Assembly (NCBI RefSeq): GCF_008629695.1
Contig: NZ_VWSH01000004.1
Coordinates: forward strand, 186,001 to 250,000
Source of the DNA: Taibaiella lutea
GTDB lineage: Bacteria; Bacteroidota; Bacteroidia; Chitinophagales; Chitinophagaceae
DNA length: 64,000 nucleotides
Direction: 5' to 3'
Under the pieces are notes generated by a model that was not told the origin of the DNA, made no database searches, and was given only the letters and a program-made list of their open reading frames with translations. Positions 10,072-57,283 of the stretch are shown here, one piece after another. The translations under genes and the position numbers were made by a program. The stretch's first letter is position 1; each line of letters begins with the position of its first letter.

Positions 10072-10773
10072 ATGAAATGTCTGATAGTAGATGATGAGCT
10101 ATTGGCTCAGGAAGTAATTGAATCTTATATAGAGAAGGTGGATTCCCTGCAGCTTGCAGGTAAATGCAATAATGCATTGCAGGCTTTCGCAGCGCTCAAC
10201 CGTGAACCGATTGACCTGATGTTTCTGGATATAAAAATGCCGGAAATGACGGGACTTGAATTGCTACGTACGTTGAAAAACCCGCCTAAAGTCATTATTA
10301 CAACTGCATTTCATGAGTATGCGCTGGATGGTTTTGAACTCGATGTGGTCGATTATTTATTGAAGCCTGTTTCTTTTAACCGCTTTTTAAAAGCCATACA
10401 TAAGGTTAAGGTGAATAAAGAGCCTGTTGCTGAAATCAAGGAGGAGCATAATATTCCGGAAGCTTTTTATGTGCGCAGCGATCGGAAACTGATTAAAATA
10501 AACCCGATGGAAATCATTTATATTGAAGCACTTAAGAACTATTTGTGTATCTATACTTTAAGCCAGAAAGTAATCATCCATAGCACGATGGTCTATCTGG
10601 AAGAACAACTCAAGTCTCATGCATTCATACATCGGGTTCATAAATCTTTTCTTGTCAACAGGCATTTTATAAAAGAAATTGACAATGGAATACTTAAGAT
10701 GAATAATGGTAGTGAAATTCCTTTGGGTGGTTTATACAGAGATGCATTTTTAGAGGAAATGCGTATTCTGTAA
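10072..10773 (+). CDS. LytTR-family response regulator
   Basis: A 233-residue transcription regulator. The receiver domain (1-120) has the acidic pocket VDDE at 6-9, phospho-acceptor Asp53 in FLDIKMPEMTG, the Thr in ITTAFHEYA and Lys in YLLKPVS. The C-terminal LytTR DNA-binding domain (about 135-233) contains VRSDRKLIKI and HRVHKSFLVNRHFI. It is phosphorylated by the kinase encoded just upstream. The pair is convergent with the large ABC-peptidase gene across a bidirectional terminator, so the target genes are not evident from position. Confidence 0.92.
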   Translation: MKCLIVDDELLAQEVIESYIEKVDSLQLAGKCNNALQAFAALNREPIDLMFLDIKMPEMTGLELLRTLKNPPKVIITTAFHEYALDGFELDVVDYLLKPVSFNRFLKAIHKVKVNKEPVAEIKEEHNIPEAFYVRSDRKLIKINPMEIIYIEALKNYLCIYTLSQKVIIHSTMVYLEEQLKSHAFIHRVHKSFLVNRHFIKEIDNGILKMNNGSEIPLGGLYRDAFLEEMRIL

Positions 10774-52371: not shown

Positions 52372-52456
52372 GCGGCGATGGCGAAACTGGTAGACGCACT
52401 ACCTTGAGGTGGTAGCGCCTGTTACGGGCGTGGGAGTTCGAATCTCCTTTGCCGCA
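52372..52456 (+). tRNA. tRNA-Leu (anticodon GAG)
   Basis: The 85-nt sequence folds to a cloverleaf. Acceptor arms are GCGGCGA at 52372-52378 and TTGCCGC at 52449-52455 with discriminator A; CCA is not encoded. The anticodon stem is CTACC/GGTAG with loop TTGAGGT, giving anticodon GAG (reads CUC/CUU). The long variable arm (GCGCCTGTTACGGGCG region) and the T-arm GTTCGAAT are typical of class II tRNA-Leu. It is followed by a terminator at 52485-52521. Confidence 0.95.
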
Positions 52457-52484
52457 CATCGGCAAATTTGCCTGAATACTAAAT

Positions 52485-52521
52485 AAAAAGGGTTTGCTCG
52501 TAAACGAACAAACCCTTTTTA
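52485..52521 (+). terminator. Terminator of tRNA-Leu
   Basis: AAAAAGGGTTTG hairpin with its complement and a T-tract, starting 29 bp after the tRNA. Confidence 0.85.
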
Positions 52522-52825
52522 TTTATCTGAATACCTTTCAGCGAAATGTGTTTGATAATTCATTCCATAACCTGCTTTCAAATACAATATTTGTAAGTTC
52601 CTTTAGGGAATGATACAACACAGTTTTATGCCTGAAAACATTTATTTTATACATTCTTGGACACACAATAACAACATCTGCAAGGATTAACATTTTCTTC
52701 CGGCTGTATATAAAAATTTGAATTTCATTTTATTAAAATGATTCTCTACCTTTCGCTAATTAATTCTCATCCTTGCCAGGCTGAACCATATAACTAACCG
52801 CTTATTTAGATTGTATCTTTCAACT
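52522..52825. other. Intergenic region upstream of the stressosome operon
   Basis: A 304-bp A/T-rich spacer between the tRNA-Leu terminator and the RsbR-like gene. No gene was found. A TACCTTTC box (52747-52754) could be a -7 element but its spacing to the nearest TTTG is 26 bp, so the promoter is not clear. Confidence 0.55.
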
Positions 52826-53686
52826 ATGCCAACCAAAACATACCAATTGCTACAAAAAAAGAAAAAGAGTATCCTTGAACTCTGGATGAAGAACCAACTT
52901 TCAGATGAAGGATTGCGCGAAGACCTTATCAGTAACGAGGAATTACGAAGCCAGTCTGATGAACTGGTCACCGCATTGGTTGGTAATCTTTCTGCCGAAA
53001 ATTTCTCTGATCTCAACTCTGATGAGTGGAGTCCGGTTATAGAGATTCTCGGAGGAATAGCTATCACAAGGGCACGCCAGGGCTTCAGTCCGCGTGAAAC
53101 TGGTAATTTTGTTTTCTCATTGAAAGAAGCTTTACTACAAGTATTGCAGGATGAGATTAAGACTGATCCTATGATGTTGTTTCAGGAAAGCATGAAGATC
53201 AGCCGCATTATGGATAACCTTAGCGTGGTGACTTTTGAAACATTTATCAAAGGCCGTGAAGAAGTGATCCTTCGTCAGACAGATGAGATAACAGAAATAT
53301 CTACGCCGGTAATCCGTGTATGGACCGGTATTCTTGCCTTGCCTATCATTGGTACGCTTGATAGTGCACGTACACAGGTGGTAATGGAAAACCTGCTGCA
53401 GGAAATTGTGGAAACAGGCTCCAGCATTGCTATCCTTGATATTTCCGGTGTTCCTGCTGTAGATTCACTGGTGGCGCAGCACCTGATCAAAACGGTCAGC
53501 GCTACCCGTTTAATGGGGGCGGAATGTATTATCAGTGGCATCAGGCCTGAAATTGCTCAGACCGTGGTTCATCTTGGTATTGATCTTTCCAATATCATTA
53601 CGAAAGCGACCCTTGCAAGTGCTCTGGCTTATGCTTTTCAGGTAATGCGCTTGGAAGTTAGAAAAGTTAATTCAATTCAAAAATAA
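52826..53686 (+). CDS. RsbR-like stressosome scaffold/sensor with STAS domain
   Basis: 286 residues. The N-terminal half (about 5-145) looks like the helical RsbRD-type sensor domain; the C-terminal STAS domain begins near ISTPVIRVWTGILALPIIG. The STAS core has IAILDISGVPAVDSLVAQHLIKTVSATRLMG. Ser214 in VDSLVAQ occupies the position of the phosphorylated Thr205 of B. subtilis RsbR, and Ser180 (GTLDSARTQ) is near the Thr171 position. RsbR paralogues form the large stressosome core together with RsbS and hold RsbT until stress. The ATG at 52826 is used; an in-frame TTG at 52811 is unlikely. First gene of the five-gene operon; rsbS starts 13 bp downstream. Confidence 0.85.
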   Translation: MPTKTYQLLQKKKKSILELWMKNQLSDEGLREDLISNEELRSQSDELVTALVGNLSAENFSDLNSDEWSPVIEILGGIAITRARQGFSPRETGNFVFSLKEALLQVLQDEIKTDPMMLFQESMKISRIMDNLSVVTFETFIKGREEVILRQTDEITEISTPVIRVWTGILALPIIGTLDSARTQVVMENLLQEIVETGSSIAILDISGVPAVDSLVAQHLIKTVSATRLMGAECIISGIRPEIAQTVVHLGIDLSNIITKATLASALAYAFQVMRLEVRKVNSIQK

Positions 53687-53699
53687 TTAAAGATATACC

Positions 53700-54110
53700 A
53701 TGGATAGAATTCCTATTCTTCGGATGGGGGCCTTTTTGCTGGTCACTATTCAGGTAGATCTGTACGATCGACTCGCGCTTACGCTCGAATCGGATTTGGT
53801 ACAGATGGTGAACAAAACAGGCGCAAAAGGAGTATTGATAGATATTTCGGCGGTTTCAATAGTAGACTCATTCATGGGGCGCATTATCGGGAATATTGCC
53901 AGCATGTCCAGAATCCTGGATGCAGCCACAGTAGTAGTAGGTATGCAGCCTGCTGTTGCCATAACGCTTATTGAACTCGGCTTGCCGCTTAAAGGTGTAC
54001 ATACAGCACTGGATATGGAAAAAGGAATGAATTTACTAAAATCAATGATTCATATTCCTCAAGAGGATGACGACCAAGACCTCACTACTGATGATTCTAT
54101 CGCTGAGTAA
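53700..54110 (+). CDS. RsbS-like STAS-domain antagonist
   Basis: 136 residues. It is a single STAS domain with LIDISAVSIVDSFMGRIIGNIASM; Ser57 is in the VDSF position of RsbS Ser59, which is phosphorylated by RsbT to release the switch. AATVVVGMQPAVAITLIELGL corresponds to the STAS helix region. The C-terminal tail is acidic (QEDDDQDLTTDDSIAE), a feature not usual in RsbS, and its coding region overlaps the RsbT-like gene by 20 bp (or 44 bp, if an earlier start is used). It is coupled to the RsbR-like gene 13 bp upstream. Confidence 0.87.
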   Translation: MDRIPILRMGAFLLVTIQVDLYDRLALTLESDLVQMVNKTGAKGVLIDISAVSIVDSFMGRIIGNIASMSRILDAATVVVGMQPAVAITLIELGLPLKGVHTALDMEKGMNLLKSMIHIPQEDDDQDLTTDDSIAE

Positions 54111-54504
54111 AGACAACATCCAGATTGTCAGAGAACAGGATTCGGTCTTTCTCAAAAACCGGGTTAAAGAAGTTGCCGTCAAGATTAAAATGGGCCTTGT
54201 TAACCAGACCCGTCTTATTACGGCCGCCAGCGAACTGGTAAGGAATATGCTGCGCTATGCCAATGGCGGTAATTGCCTTATCGAAATCGTATCGAGCGGT
54301 AAGATAAATGGAGTAAGGCTGACTTTCAGTGATAAAGGTCCCGGCATTCCGGATATTACTGCCGCTATGCGCGATGGGTTTTCCACCGGCAAAAGTCTTG
54401 GATTAGGGTTACCCGGCACAAAACGTCTGGTCAATGAATTTGAAATAAAAAGTAAAGTAGGGGAAGGTACACAGGTTACGATATTGAAATGGGCAAATGG
54501 TTGA
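54091..54504 (+). CDS. RsbT-like anti-sigma-type serine kinase
   Basis: About 137 residues of the GHKL ATPase fold. N box SELVRNMLRYANG (Glu and Asn for Mg-ATP), G1 box SDKGPGIPD and G2 box GLGLGLPGTKRL are intact, so it should be an active kinase. In Bacillus RsbT phosphorylates RsbR and RsbS and, once released, activates the phosphatase RsbU. The start at 54091 was chosen by alignment to RsbT length (133 residues in B. subtilis); an ATG at 54067 would add 8 residues. It overlaps the following kinase-phosphatase gene by 8 bp. Confidence 0.87.
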   Translation: MILSLSKDNIQIVREQDSVFLKNRVKEVAVKIKMGLVNQTRLITAASELVRNMLRYANGGNCLIEIVSSGKINGVRLTFSDKGPGIPDITAAMRDGFSTGKSLGLGLPGTKRLVNEFEIKSKVGEGTQVTILKWANG

Positions 54505-55507
54505 CGCAACACATATTAGCTTTACCGCAAATGACAGAAGCTATTTTTCACTTATAAAAAAAGAAATCCGGAGACTTGCTACAGAATCCGGAATGAAACC
54601 CGGACGTATCAATGAGTTGGATCTGATTGCGGCCGAAATGACTTCAAACCTGTATAAGTACAGCGATGACGGCGAAATACTTGTTGGCGTATTTGCCAAT
54701 GGCGACAATCCTTACGTGGAACTCATTAGTCTGGATAAAGGCCCCGGAATGATTAACCCGGGGAAAATGATGCAAGACGGTATATCTACCTCCAATACAC
54801 TGGGACATGGGCTTGGCAGTATGAAAAGACTGTCTGATACTTTTGAAATCTATTCTCAGATAGGCTGGGGAACTATTGTAATGAGCAGAGTGTATAGCAA
54901 ACCTGAAAAAGCAGGAACTAAAAAAGACATCATTATACGTCCTATCGTAGTTTGCAAGCCGGGAGAAACCGTAAGCGGAGATGGTTTTGTGTACAAAAGG
55001 ACAGACAAGTATATAAAATTTATGCTCGCAGATGGTTTGGGACATGGGCCGGAAGCGAACAAAGCAGTGAATGAAGCAGTTGCTGCATTCAAAGTTTTTC
55101 CTGATTACAGCCCTTCTGAAACCTTACGTTTTATTCATGCCAATATAAAAAAAACAAGAGGGGCCGTTATCAATATTACAGGTTATGAGTTCGAATCAAA
55201 AAAATGGACTTCATCAGGCGTAGGTAATATCTTTTTGAGAGTCAACGGACCGATAACTGTAAAAAATCATATGTCTTATAATGGAATTGTAGGCCATAAT
55301 ATTCCCTCGACGATTAATGATCAGGTTTATCCTGGTGATCAGTTTAACCAGATTATGTTATGTTCTGATGGAATTAAGACACGCATTGACCTGACACGGC
55401 ACCCGCAAATGTATAAATACGATGCAGCTGTTTTAGCTGCGGTAATATACAAAGATTATGCACGCAGAAACGACGATATGTCAATAGTAATAGCAAAACT
55501 GAAATGA
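54497..55507 (+). CDS. Fused RsbT-like kinase and PP2C/SpoIIE-type phosphatase
   Basis: 336 residues. The N-terminal domain (about 1-135) is a GHKL ATPase with an N box (AAEMTSNLYKYS: Glu47, Asn51), G1 (SLDKGPGM, Asp80) and G2 (LGHGLGSMKRL). The C-terminal half (about 145-336) is an RsbX/SpoIIE-like PP2C phosphatase with acidic motifs ADGLGHGPEA (Asp179), MLCSDGIKT (Asp291) and RRNDDMSIVIAKLK. It thus combines the functions of RsbT/W-like kinase and RsbX-like phosphatase in one chain, likely acting on the RsbR/RsbS-like STAS proteins. It overlaps both neighbours (8 bp and 4 bp ATGA). Both active sites look intact. Confidence 0.86.
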   Translation: MVDATHISFTANDRSYFSLIKKEIRRLATESGMKPGRINELDLIAAEMTSNLYKYSDDGEILVGVFANGDNPYVELISLDKGPGMINPGKMMQDGISTSNTLGHGLGSMKRLSDTFEIYSQIGWGTIVMSRVYSKPEKAGTKKDIIIRPIVVCKPGETVSGDGFVYKRTDKYIKFMLADGLGHGPEANKAVNEAVAAFKVFPDYSPSETLRFIHANIKKTRGAVINITGYEFESKKWTSSGVGNIFLRVNGPITVKNHMSYNGIVGHNIPSTINDQVYPGDQFNQIMLCSDGIKTRIDLTRHPQMYKYDAAVLAAVIYKDYARRNDDMSIVIAKLK

Positions 55508-56697
55508 CAAACATTATAAAGGTATCGCTGGAAAATGAAATGGACCTTGTTCTGGCCCACAGAAAATCCATGAAAGTAGCAGAGCGGTTGGGGCTTACTA
55601 TTGCAACACAGACTACTTTTGCTACTGCCGTTTCTGAAATAGCACGGACGGTAATTGAACATACCGATAATGGAGAATTGAATATTTGTGTGGAGCAATA
55701 TAAACAACGATACAGTTTAATTGCTTCCGTTGCGTTTGAAAATACAATCAGGTTTACCAATGAAGATGCAGGTTATTACTATGCGCAAAAACTCGTTCCC
55801 GAATTCCGATTGATAGAATCTGAAACAGGCAATACCATCGAAATGAAGATAGGGATGCCACGTTCTCTGAGGTTGGATCCCGTTAAGCTTGCAACATTGG
55901 TAAAATACTTTGAAGAAGAAGAGCCTCTCAATGCTTATGAAGAGATCAAACAACGAAACTATTCCCTGAATAAAATTGCTCAGGAAAAAGAAGAAGAGCT
56001 TCGTCAGTCAAAAATAATTGATGAAAAGAAAACTGAATTTATTTCCATTGCCAGTCATGAAATAAAAACGCCTATCACCATTATAAAGGCTTATACACAG
56101 ATTGCACTTACACTCGGTGATCAATGCAGTGAAGATGTGAGAGAGTTTTTAACTAAAGTCGATTTTCAGACCACAAAATTGCTATCATTGGTTCAGCAGT
56201 TGCTGGATGTTTCAAAGATGGAAAACGGCAACTTTGCCTATACAAAAGAACCTGTTTCGTTGAACGGCTTTATTATAGAAATGGAAGCCGTCCTTAAAAA
56301 TATCGTGCCGCATCATCAGATCATTGTTAACCTGAGTAATGATTATACCGTTTTCATTGATAAAATAAGAATGGAACAAGTATTCTCTAACATTATTGTT
56401 AATGCCGCAAAATATTCTGATAAGCATACTGACATCATCATCACGGGAAATGTAACTCAGGATGGTTTTGTGAAAATTGGCTTTACAGATCAGGGTATCG
56501 GCATGACATCGGGCAGTATGGAATCTATTTTCAAGAAATTTTACCGCGATAAAGATGTCATGACAACACATTCCGGATTAGGAATGGGTTTATATATTAC
56601 CTCCAAAATCATAAGAGATCACGGCGGCGAAATATGGGCGGAGAGTACGGAAGGCATCGGTTCAACTTTCTACATTACCATACCTGTAGCAGAATAA
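55504..56697 (+). CDS. Histidine kinase with degenerate RsbT-like N-terminal domain
   Basis: 397 residues, no membrane segments. Residues about 1-130 look like an RsbT-type GHKL domain: TTFATAVSEIARTVIEHTDNGELNI is a degenerate N box with Thr49 in place of the Mg-binding Asn, and no G1 DxGxG is present. A coiled helix (145-170) leads to the DHp box SIASHEIKTPITIIKAY with His185, then a true HATPase domain: IVNAAKYSDKH, TDQGIGMTSGS and SGLGMGLYITSKII. The first domain probably binds STAS partners rather than ATP. The kinase would pass the stressosome state to a response regulator elsewhere. It starts within the stop of the previous gene (ATGA). Confidence 0.85.
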   Translation: MTNIIKVSLENEMDLVLAHRKSMKVAERLGLTIATQTTFATAVSEIARTVIEHTDNGELNICVEQYKQRYSLIASVAFENTIRFTNEDAGYYYAQKLVPEFRLIESETGNTIEMKIGMPRSLRLDPVKLATLVKYFEEEEPLNAYEEIKQRNYSLNKIAQEKEEELRQSKIIDEKKTEFISIASHEIKTPITIIKAYTQIALTLGDQCSEDVREFLTKVDFQTTKLLSLVQQLLDVSKMENGNFAYTKEPVSLNGFIIEMEAVLKNIVPHHQIIVNLSNDYTVFIDKIRMEQVFSNIIVNAAKYSDKHTDIIITGNVTQDGFVKIGFTDQGIGMTSGSMESIFKKFYRDKDVMTTHSGLGMGLYITSKIIRDHGGEIWAESTEGIGSTFYITIPVAE

Positions 56698-57283
56698 TCC
56701 ACTAAAGATTATATGAAATAGACAGGAATAAACCCTGTCCAATAATGATTTCAAATCCTATCTGTTTTGATACATATAGAGCCTGATTTTGTATCTGGCT
56801 ATTCAACTATAGGTGTTGACATACTGCTTAAAACGTTCTCTAAAAGTCCTGAAAGGGCGAAAGAGAACAGGATAGGGTGAAGCCTTATCCAATAATAATT
56901 CTGTAAAACCCTGTCCTCTGATTGCATTTCAGGAACCTATGAGGTTTTCAAAACCTCATAGGTTTAATTAGACGCCTAAGTTAATAACATAAAGAAAACC
57001 CCTTCCGTTGATTATACGCCTCTCTACCAGCCCTGAAAGGGCGAAAGAGAACAGGATAGGGTGAAACCCTATCCTCTAATAATTAGACACAACCCTATTC
57101 GCTGATTTATTTCAGTAAACCTATGAGGTTTTCAAAACCTCACAGGTTTAATTACTGTACACACTCCCTCTCTACCAGCCCTTAAAGGGCGAAAGAAAAT
57201 AGGATAGGGTGCAACCCTATCCTATAATAATTGGGTAAAACCCTATCCTGTTGTTGTTCCTGCCGCTTAAATATTTGTTCGGT
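56698..57283. repeat. Cluster of alternating palindromic repeats
   Basis: No gene was found in this 586-bp spacer. It holds three copies of a ~56-bp element (ccctgaaagggcgaaagagaacaggatagggt... then an ATCCT arm and aataataatt) at about 56845-56900, 57029-57084 and 57177-57232. Two AACCTATGAGGTTTT palindromes lie at 56934-56964 and 57117-57149, so the order is element-palindrome-element-palindrome-element. The GCCCTGAAAGGGC hairpin is shared with 6044-6056 and 62485-62497. It fits REPIN-like intergenic clusters rather than CRISPR: spacers are not unique sequences of constant length. Confidence 0.8.

Follow-up and report, generated by a model that had tools for sequence, protein, structure and literature searches.

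A stressosome operon of Taibaiella lutea ends in a histidine kinase with a predicted pseudo-RsbT front end

In Taibaiella lutea (Bacteroidota, Chitinophagaceae; assembly GCF_008629695.1), a stretch of 64,000 nucleotides from contig NZ_VWSH01000004.1 (positions 186,001 to 250,000; in the following, the window) carries a five-gene operon at 52826-56697. Judged by sequence, its first four genes encode a complete stressosome module, i.e. RsbR, RsbS, RsbT and an RsbX-type phosphatase (here R, S, T and X), and the fifth a histidine kinase (H). Residues 1-119 of H show, according to a structure model, a fold of the RsbT/RsbW/SpoIIAB type that has lost its ATP site, denoted here as pseudo-RsbT. H is probably an output of the stressosome that is addressed through this N-terminal domain, a statement that covers binding to the STAS proteins as well as binding to RsbT. 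Two-component outputs of stressosomes and the presence of the module in Bacteroidota are already known; the pseudo-RsbT adaptor is apparently new, as it was not found in the literature searched. The genes and domains are, in window coordinates:

52826..53686, + strand: rsbR-like gene R, with an RsbRD_N sensor domain (approximately 52844-53149) and a STAS domain (approximately 53309-53620), from Pfam and solved structures.
53700..54110, + strand: rsbS-like gene S, a single STAS domain with phosphoacceptor Ser57, from Pfam and solved structures.
54091..54504, + strand: rsbT-like switch kinase gene T, with an alternative in-frame ATG at 54067.
54497..55507, + strand: gene X, a fusion of an RsbT-like domain (approximately 54497-54886) and an RsbX-type PP2C phosphatase (approximately 54944-55501).
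55504..56697, + strand: histidine kinase gene H, 397 amino acids (aa).
55504..55860, + strand: residues 1-119 of H, predicted degenerate RsbT/RsbW/SpoIIAB-type domain (pseudo-RsbT).
56029..56229, + strand: HisKA dimerisation/phosphoacceptor domain of H (Pfam, 51.2 bits).
56359..56691, + strand: catalytic HATPase_c domain of H (Pfam, 87.2 bits).

The operon of RsbR, RsbS, RsbT, RsbT-PP2C and histidine kinase genes proposed in an initial annotation of this DNA is real, with all five open reading frames (ORFs) on one strand, and its spacing (overlaps of 4-20 bp and one gap of 13 bp) agrees with the measured junctions of +13 bp (R/S), -20 bp (S/T, with the start at 54091), -8 bp (T/X) and -4 bp (X/H). 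Since all five genes recur in 74 of 80 relatives, the layout is not due to chance. The assignment of the STAS proteins to the RsbR and RsbS types is borne out by profile searches and by solved structures. R matches RsbRD_N (PF14361) with 98 bits and STAS with 55 bits in Pfam, and solved RsbR proteins with E-values of 1e-33 to 1e-31 (best 7o0i, 1.2e-33; 7b0u, 3.2e-32 across residues 9-277). S matches STAS (27.7 bits) and a solved RsbS structure (E 2.5e-31). T is recognized as HATPase_c (51 bits) and aligns with solved SpoIIAB (E 2.5e-6). The PP2C half of X gives a weak Pfam match (SpoIIE, E 0.015) and matches the solved phosphatases 3zt9 (E 1e-17) and RsbX 3w40 (E 7e-8).

Residues expected for a working switch are conserved as well. 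The two known phosphoacceptor positions of RsbR are a Ser and a Thr in 74/75 relatives, and RsbS Ser57 is invariant in a nine-row alignment (A2), with a phosphoacceptor Ser in 73/75 relatives; the remaining sequences fall outside the search patterns. The roles of these residues in Bacillus subtilis are described in PMC3944199. The residues of the N, G1 and G2 boxes are invariant in T (27-sequence alignment) and in the RsbT-type half of X (27 rows), and the acidic, metal-binding motifs of PP2C are found in 27/27 X proteins. Judged by these motifs and those of H described below, the catalytic sites of T, X and H are intact, and the locus combines RsbR, RsbS, an RsbT with complete ATP motifs and an RsbX-type PP2C, the protein set expected of a stressosome, with activities predicted from sequence.

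With its HisKA phosphoacceptor His and the N and G boxes of HATPase_c, H is by sequence a soluble two-component histidine kinase, and the corresponding motifs are retained among its relatives (SH[ED] in 77/79, the N-box pattern in 73/79, the C-terminal DxGxG in 78/79). Thus, the kinase identity given in the initial annotation stands; the domain in front of it had been overlooked. To read H from Pfam and NCBIfam as an ordinary soluble kinase is incomplete, as residues 1-175 contain no Pfam domain above the cut-off and pseudo-RsbT is missed in this way. The fold was assigned from the structure model; when a profile of the N-terminal domain was compared by sequence with solved structures, all matches were non-significant (E 0.47-0.53). 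The ATP boxes of the domain are worn away, with the N-box Asn left in 7 of 57 sequences and DxGxG in 2 of 57, and neither is present in H of the window. A Pfam search for RsbU_N in H gave no match at E <= 1, and viral contigs yielded no confirmed relative of the domain.

A search of Bacteroidota for RsbRST loci and their downstream genes, as proposed in the initial annotation, shows that the H-ending layout is widespread. Relatives are encoded by 222 stretches from named genomes; the best 80 were kept, and all of these belong to Bacteroidota. The full R, S, T, X and H set is present in 74 of these 80, contiguous on one strand in 73; L065, L090, L122 and L125 are incomplete at contig ends, and L117 has all five genes with R split into two ORFs. 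T and X overlap in 77/77 loci and S and T in 74/75, and X and H overlap in 35/77, with 41 more at a distance of 0-15 bp. H is shorter than 450 aa in 60 relatives and longer in 19, where one long protein (L095) is merely a longer ORF call and one counted as short (L117) is a cut PAS-type protein. Among ten long H proteins scanned, seven have a PAS region above the Pfam cut-off and L216, L217 and L218 show sub-threshold PAS matches only; the label 'PAS-type' is accordingly Pfam-based. In a class-level sample, the pseudo-RsbT domain occurs in 9 of 395 genomes, including that of the window. Sequence, structure model and conservation together show the gene content, the pseudo-RsbT fold and the genetic linkage between H and the stressosome genes. 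Mucilaginibacter corticis (L053/L056), Mucilaginibacter sp. SMC90 (L069/L078) and M. gossypiicola (L068/L079) each carry the operon twice.

The arrangement had been considered noteworthy for a Bacteroidota genome, which is not supported, as it is conserved in many genera and rsbRSTX modules without SigB, followed by phosphorelay proteins, have been described in Bacteroidetes (PMC9237108). Neither is a two-component output of a stressosome a novelty: a Vibrio case has been studied in vivo (PMC10014275, which cites Pane-Farre 2005 and 2017 for such outputs; see also PMC9237108). A description of an RsbT-like domain in front of a histidine kinase was not found among the papers listed in a literature search whose coverage did not extend to the two Pane-Farre reviews.

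The best evidence for pseudo-RsbT as a coupling part comes from a sample drawn independently of H, in which three front ends of the RsbT pathway appear interchangeable. Of 395 genomes sampled from the phylum, 14 encode an RsbS-like protein (E <= 1e-15). All 14 loci were read, and each includes a histidine kinase gene, which immediately follows rsbX in 13 loci and comes second in G541. The front end of this kinase is pseudo-RsbT in eight, an intact RsbT in one and RsbU_N in five. Three of the eight pseudo-RsbT kinases are short and five long, with PAS sub-threshold in three of the latter. In five genomes (G421, G423, G441, G457 and G551), a shorter rsbX, in which no RsbT domain was detected, is followed by an RsbU_N-PAS-HisKA_3 kinase with RsbU_N scores of 25.0-39.0 bits (four above the cut-off of 25.5, one just under); a receiver ORF follows in all five and is of the LuxR type in both that were scanned. 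By eye, four of these five loci (L220-L224) also contain an ORF that we take to resemble a sigma54-type activator. In G541, a receiver-receiver-kinase gene comes first, then the gene of a kinase whose RsbT-type domain is intact (PF13581, 51.6 bits), then further receivers; L051 of the class-level sample resembles this locus. The fusion of an intact RsbT domain to a histidine kinase in G541 (L219 2970-10999) and L051 may represent the form from which the pseudo-RsbT kinase arose.

The output to a two-component system proposed in the initial annotation is supported by the genes behind H. In 20 of 79 relatives, a lone receiver gene directly follows the kinase gene, six times with a 4-bp overlap, so that linkage of receiver and H in relatives is supported by conservation. 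Short-type H proteins pair with one receiver type in 8/9 cases (the ninth with another receiver), and PAS-type H proteins pair with an Rcp1-like receiver in 11/11. The A4 and Rcp1 profiles behind this classification themselves include some of the same 20 receivers (7 and 6, respectively), so that the high scores of these rows arise by construction; L055, L087, L119, L120, L122, L123 and L131 were unused in profile building. The statement that the window lacks a response regulator is correct for the neighbourhood of H, where none is found among the ORFs, and is loose for the window as a whole, since a receiver ORF (237 aa) is located at 10081-10398, about 43 kb off. An orphan receiver was also sought in the genome, as suggested in the initial annotation. 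Among 71 receiver matches, C4:123064-123435, on the same contig about 63 kb before the window, scores highest against the operon-linked type (178.6 bits), followed by C1:1073342-1073689 (151.8 bits). The former resembles the operon-linked receivers and is the best candidate for a partner of H, not more. Its gene adjoins what we presume to be heme-oxygenase-like and YifB-like genes. A similar receiver near a heme-oxygenase-like or YifB-like gene, as we take them to be, is found at several of the Mucilaginibacter-type loci examined. All 20 genomes searched by locus contain a receiver of the operon-linked type (best 157-225 bits).

On these grounds it is proposed, tentatively, that a catalytically dead copy of RsbT serves as the input domain of H and docks on the same STAS sites of RsbS and RsbR as RsbT itself, so that a single stress-triggered STAS phosphorylation would release RsbT, the phosphatase and H at once. 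In unstressed cells, a lattice of RsbR and RsbS STAS domains would hold RsbT, the RsbT-PP2C protein and H. Upon stress, RsbT would phosphorylate the conserved Ser and Thr residues of RsbS and RsbR, and the docking sites for T-type proteins would be lost. H, released or rearranged, would then change its autokinase activity and phosphorylate a stand-alone receiver, and the RsbT-PP2C protein would reset the system by dephosphorylating the STAS proteins. The parts of this scheme that we infer are STAS binding, release, whether H is switched up or down, and which receiver of this genome is its partner.

The main rival to STAS docking, which we regard as rather doubtful, is that pseudo-RsbT binds RsbT, or the RsbT-PP2C protein, as a mixed dimer and that RsbT released under stress activates H, by analogy with its activation of RsbU through RsbU_N. 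RsbU_N is the part of RsbU that RsbT binds (PMC9237108), and this domain is found on the kinase in 5 of the 14 RsbS-sampled genomes. RsbW and SpoIIAB are known to dimerise. However, H has no RsbU_N match, so that pseudo-RsbT and RsbU_N are unrelated as far as tested and their partners may differ, and the present data express no preference for RsbT over STAS binding. The confidence in H as an output is approximately the sum of that in these two versions.

Several observations weigh against this output role or against its docking version. The fold, as modelled, leaves STAS proteins and RsbT both as possible partners, and the N-terminal domain matches the RsbT-type half of X only weakly (hhalign 20.9%, E 0.001). 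In L108 and L121, none of the genes R, S, T and X accompanies H within the stretches examined, and 59 of 79 relatives as well as the window have no receiver directly after H, where some contigs end. The receiver family is frequent without H, also in the genus-mates G730 and G819, and co-occurrence is therefore weak evidence: among Sphingobacteriaceae, the receiver is present in 26/28 genomes with H and in 71/123 without, uncorrected for kinship. In the own-family sample it is present in 4/4 genomes with short-type H and in 16/191 others, among the matches listed and likewise uncorrected for kinship, where the cut of 130 bits was chosen afterwards, three of the four H matches are partial, and 7 or 22 candidates were scored per genome.

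The sparse receivers, found after H in 20/79 relatives only, would also fit a neighbour H that responds to its own signal, with the RsbT-PP2C protein acting on a STAS partner elsewhere as the sole stressosome output. STAS was matched three times in the whole genome (4.27 Mb, 5 contigs, 99.6% complete), by R, S and one 124-aa protein, which could be such a partner. The gene of this protein is flanked by what we take to be RNase Z-like and Clp-like genes. This explanation is very unlikely, given that X and H overlap or are at most 15 bp apart in 76/77 loci and that 14/14 RsbS-sampled loci have a histidine kinase, with three kinds of RsbT-pathway front end. Least likely of all is a regulation of H by RsbT-dependent phosphorylation in transient contact, as proposed for the Vibrio downstream kinase, with the N-terminal domain otherwise employed: such contact was proposed for downstream proteins without RsbU_N in PMC9237108, but the RsbT-like domain is kept in the operon whether the kinase is of the short or the PAS type, which suggests a coupling role.

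That no sigma-B, RsbV/RsbW or RsbU gene lies nearby holds for the flanking ORFs at 50.5-59.5 kb, of which two proteins were profile-searched and the others judged from the ORF list; no genome-wide search for SigB was made, and that for SpoIIE, which missed the operon's own PP2C, is too insensitive to exclude RsbU elsewhere in the genome. The operon was likely acquired by horizontal transfer into this Chitinophagaceae genome, as suggested by its grouping with Sphingobacteriaceae and by genus-mates without a full-length H. In a quick tree, it falls into a 29-row group (SH-aLRT 99) of 27 Sphingobacteriaceae, L086 and the window itself, with L086 labelled Chitinophagaceae, yet bearing the same family code as Mucilaginibacter rigui. 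Three sampled genus-mates, with seven candidates scored per genome, have no H of full-length strength (G730, E 3.2e-64; G819, E 5.5e-65; G890, none; window, 7.4e-187). An arrival of the C4 receiver together with the operon is unproven, as G730 and G819 have receivers of the same family without such an H. In a quick tree with 33 of 46 inner branches open, the C4 receiver joins orphan receivers of Mucilaginibacter (SH-aLRT 86), and those of the genus-mates are placed elsewhere.

A tRNA-Leu (gag) gene precedes the operon (window 52372-56697), and no duplicate of its end, as an integration scar, was found on the operon's other side within the window. A pattern that we take to be the Bacteroidetes-type promoter has 3 matches in the window (6.2 expected), none of them on the + strand in the interval that separates the tRNA gene from rsbR. 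Behind the operon, at 56721-57256, REP-like palindromic repeats are found in three copies of about 88 nucleotides with the core GGATAGGGT..ACCCTATCC; all five matches of this core in the window lie there, and none is expected.

The route by which stressosomes relay their signal outside Bacillus-type bacteria is an open question: in the survey of PMC9237108, most downstream proteins had no detected RsbU_N, and its authors report that they could not demonstrate contact between Vibrio RsbT and the downstream protein D1. Pseudo-RsbT, invisible to Pfam in H of the window and conserved in many Bacteroidota genera, is a concrete candidate for the coupling part. The kinase suggests how some bacteria may link stress sensing to two-component signalling rather than to a sigma factor. 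If the proposal is true, partner switching would act directly on a two-component kinase, with neither an anti-sigma factor nor a second messenger in between. The pairing of kinase and receiver types offers a route toward the regulated target.

Among known systems, the B. subtilis RsbRST-RsbU-RsbV-RsbW-SigB pathway shares the phosphoacceptor positions of RsbR and RsbS, the RsbT and an RsbX-type feedback phosphatase; RsbU_N, RsbV, RsbW and SigB were not seen beside the operon of the window, where the output is a histidine kinase. The anti-sigma kinases RsbW and SpoIIAB differ from residues 1-119 of H, which lack ATP-binding motifs, are joined to a histidine kinase and have no known sigma partner. 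Rv1364c (PDB 3ke6) combines RsbU and RsbW domains in one chain, as X joins phosphatase and RsbT-type domain, although domain order and pathway presumably differ. The five RsbU_N-PAS-HisKA_3 kinases of Bacteroidota likewise follow rsbX and carry an RsbT-pathway domain at the N-terminus, which is RsbU_N instead of pseudo-RsbT, with no RsbT domain detected in rsbX and, in the two scanned, a LuxR-type DNA-binding regulator instead of a lone receiver. The rsbRSTX operon of Vibrio vulnificus with its downstream D1/D2 genes shows the same RSTX order, no sigma cascade and two-component proteins transcribed alike downstream (PMC9237108, PMC10014275). In contrast, the sensor of the Vibrio RsbR is a haem globin and the module downstream presumably acts on c-di-GMP, whereas here RsbR carries RsbRD_N, the phosphatase RsbX has an RsbT-type fusion partner, and the kinase bears the predicted pseudo-RsbT front end.

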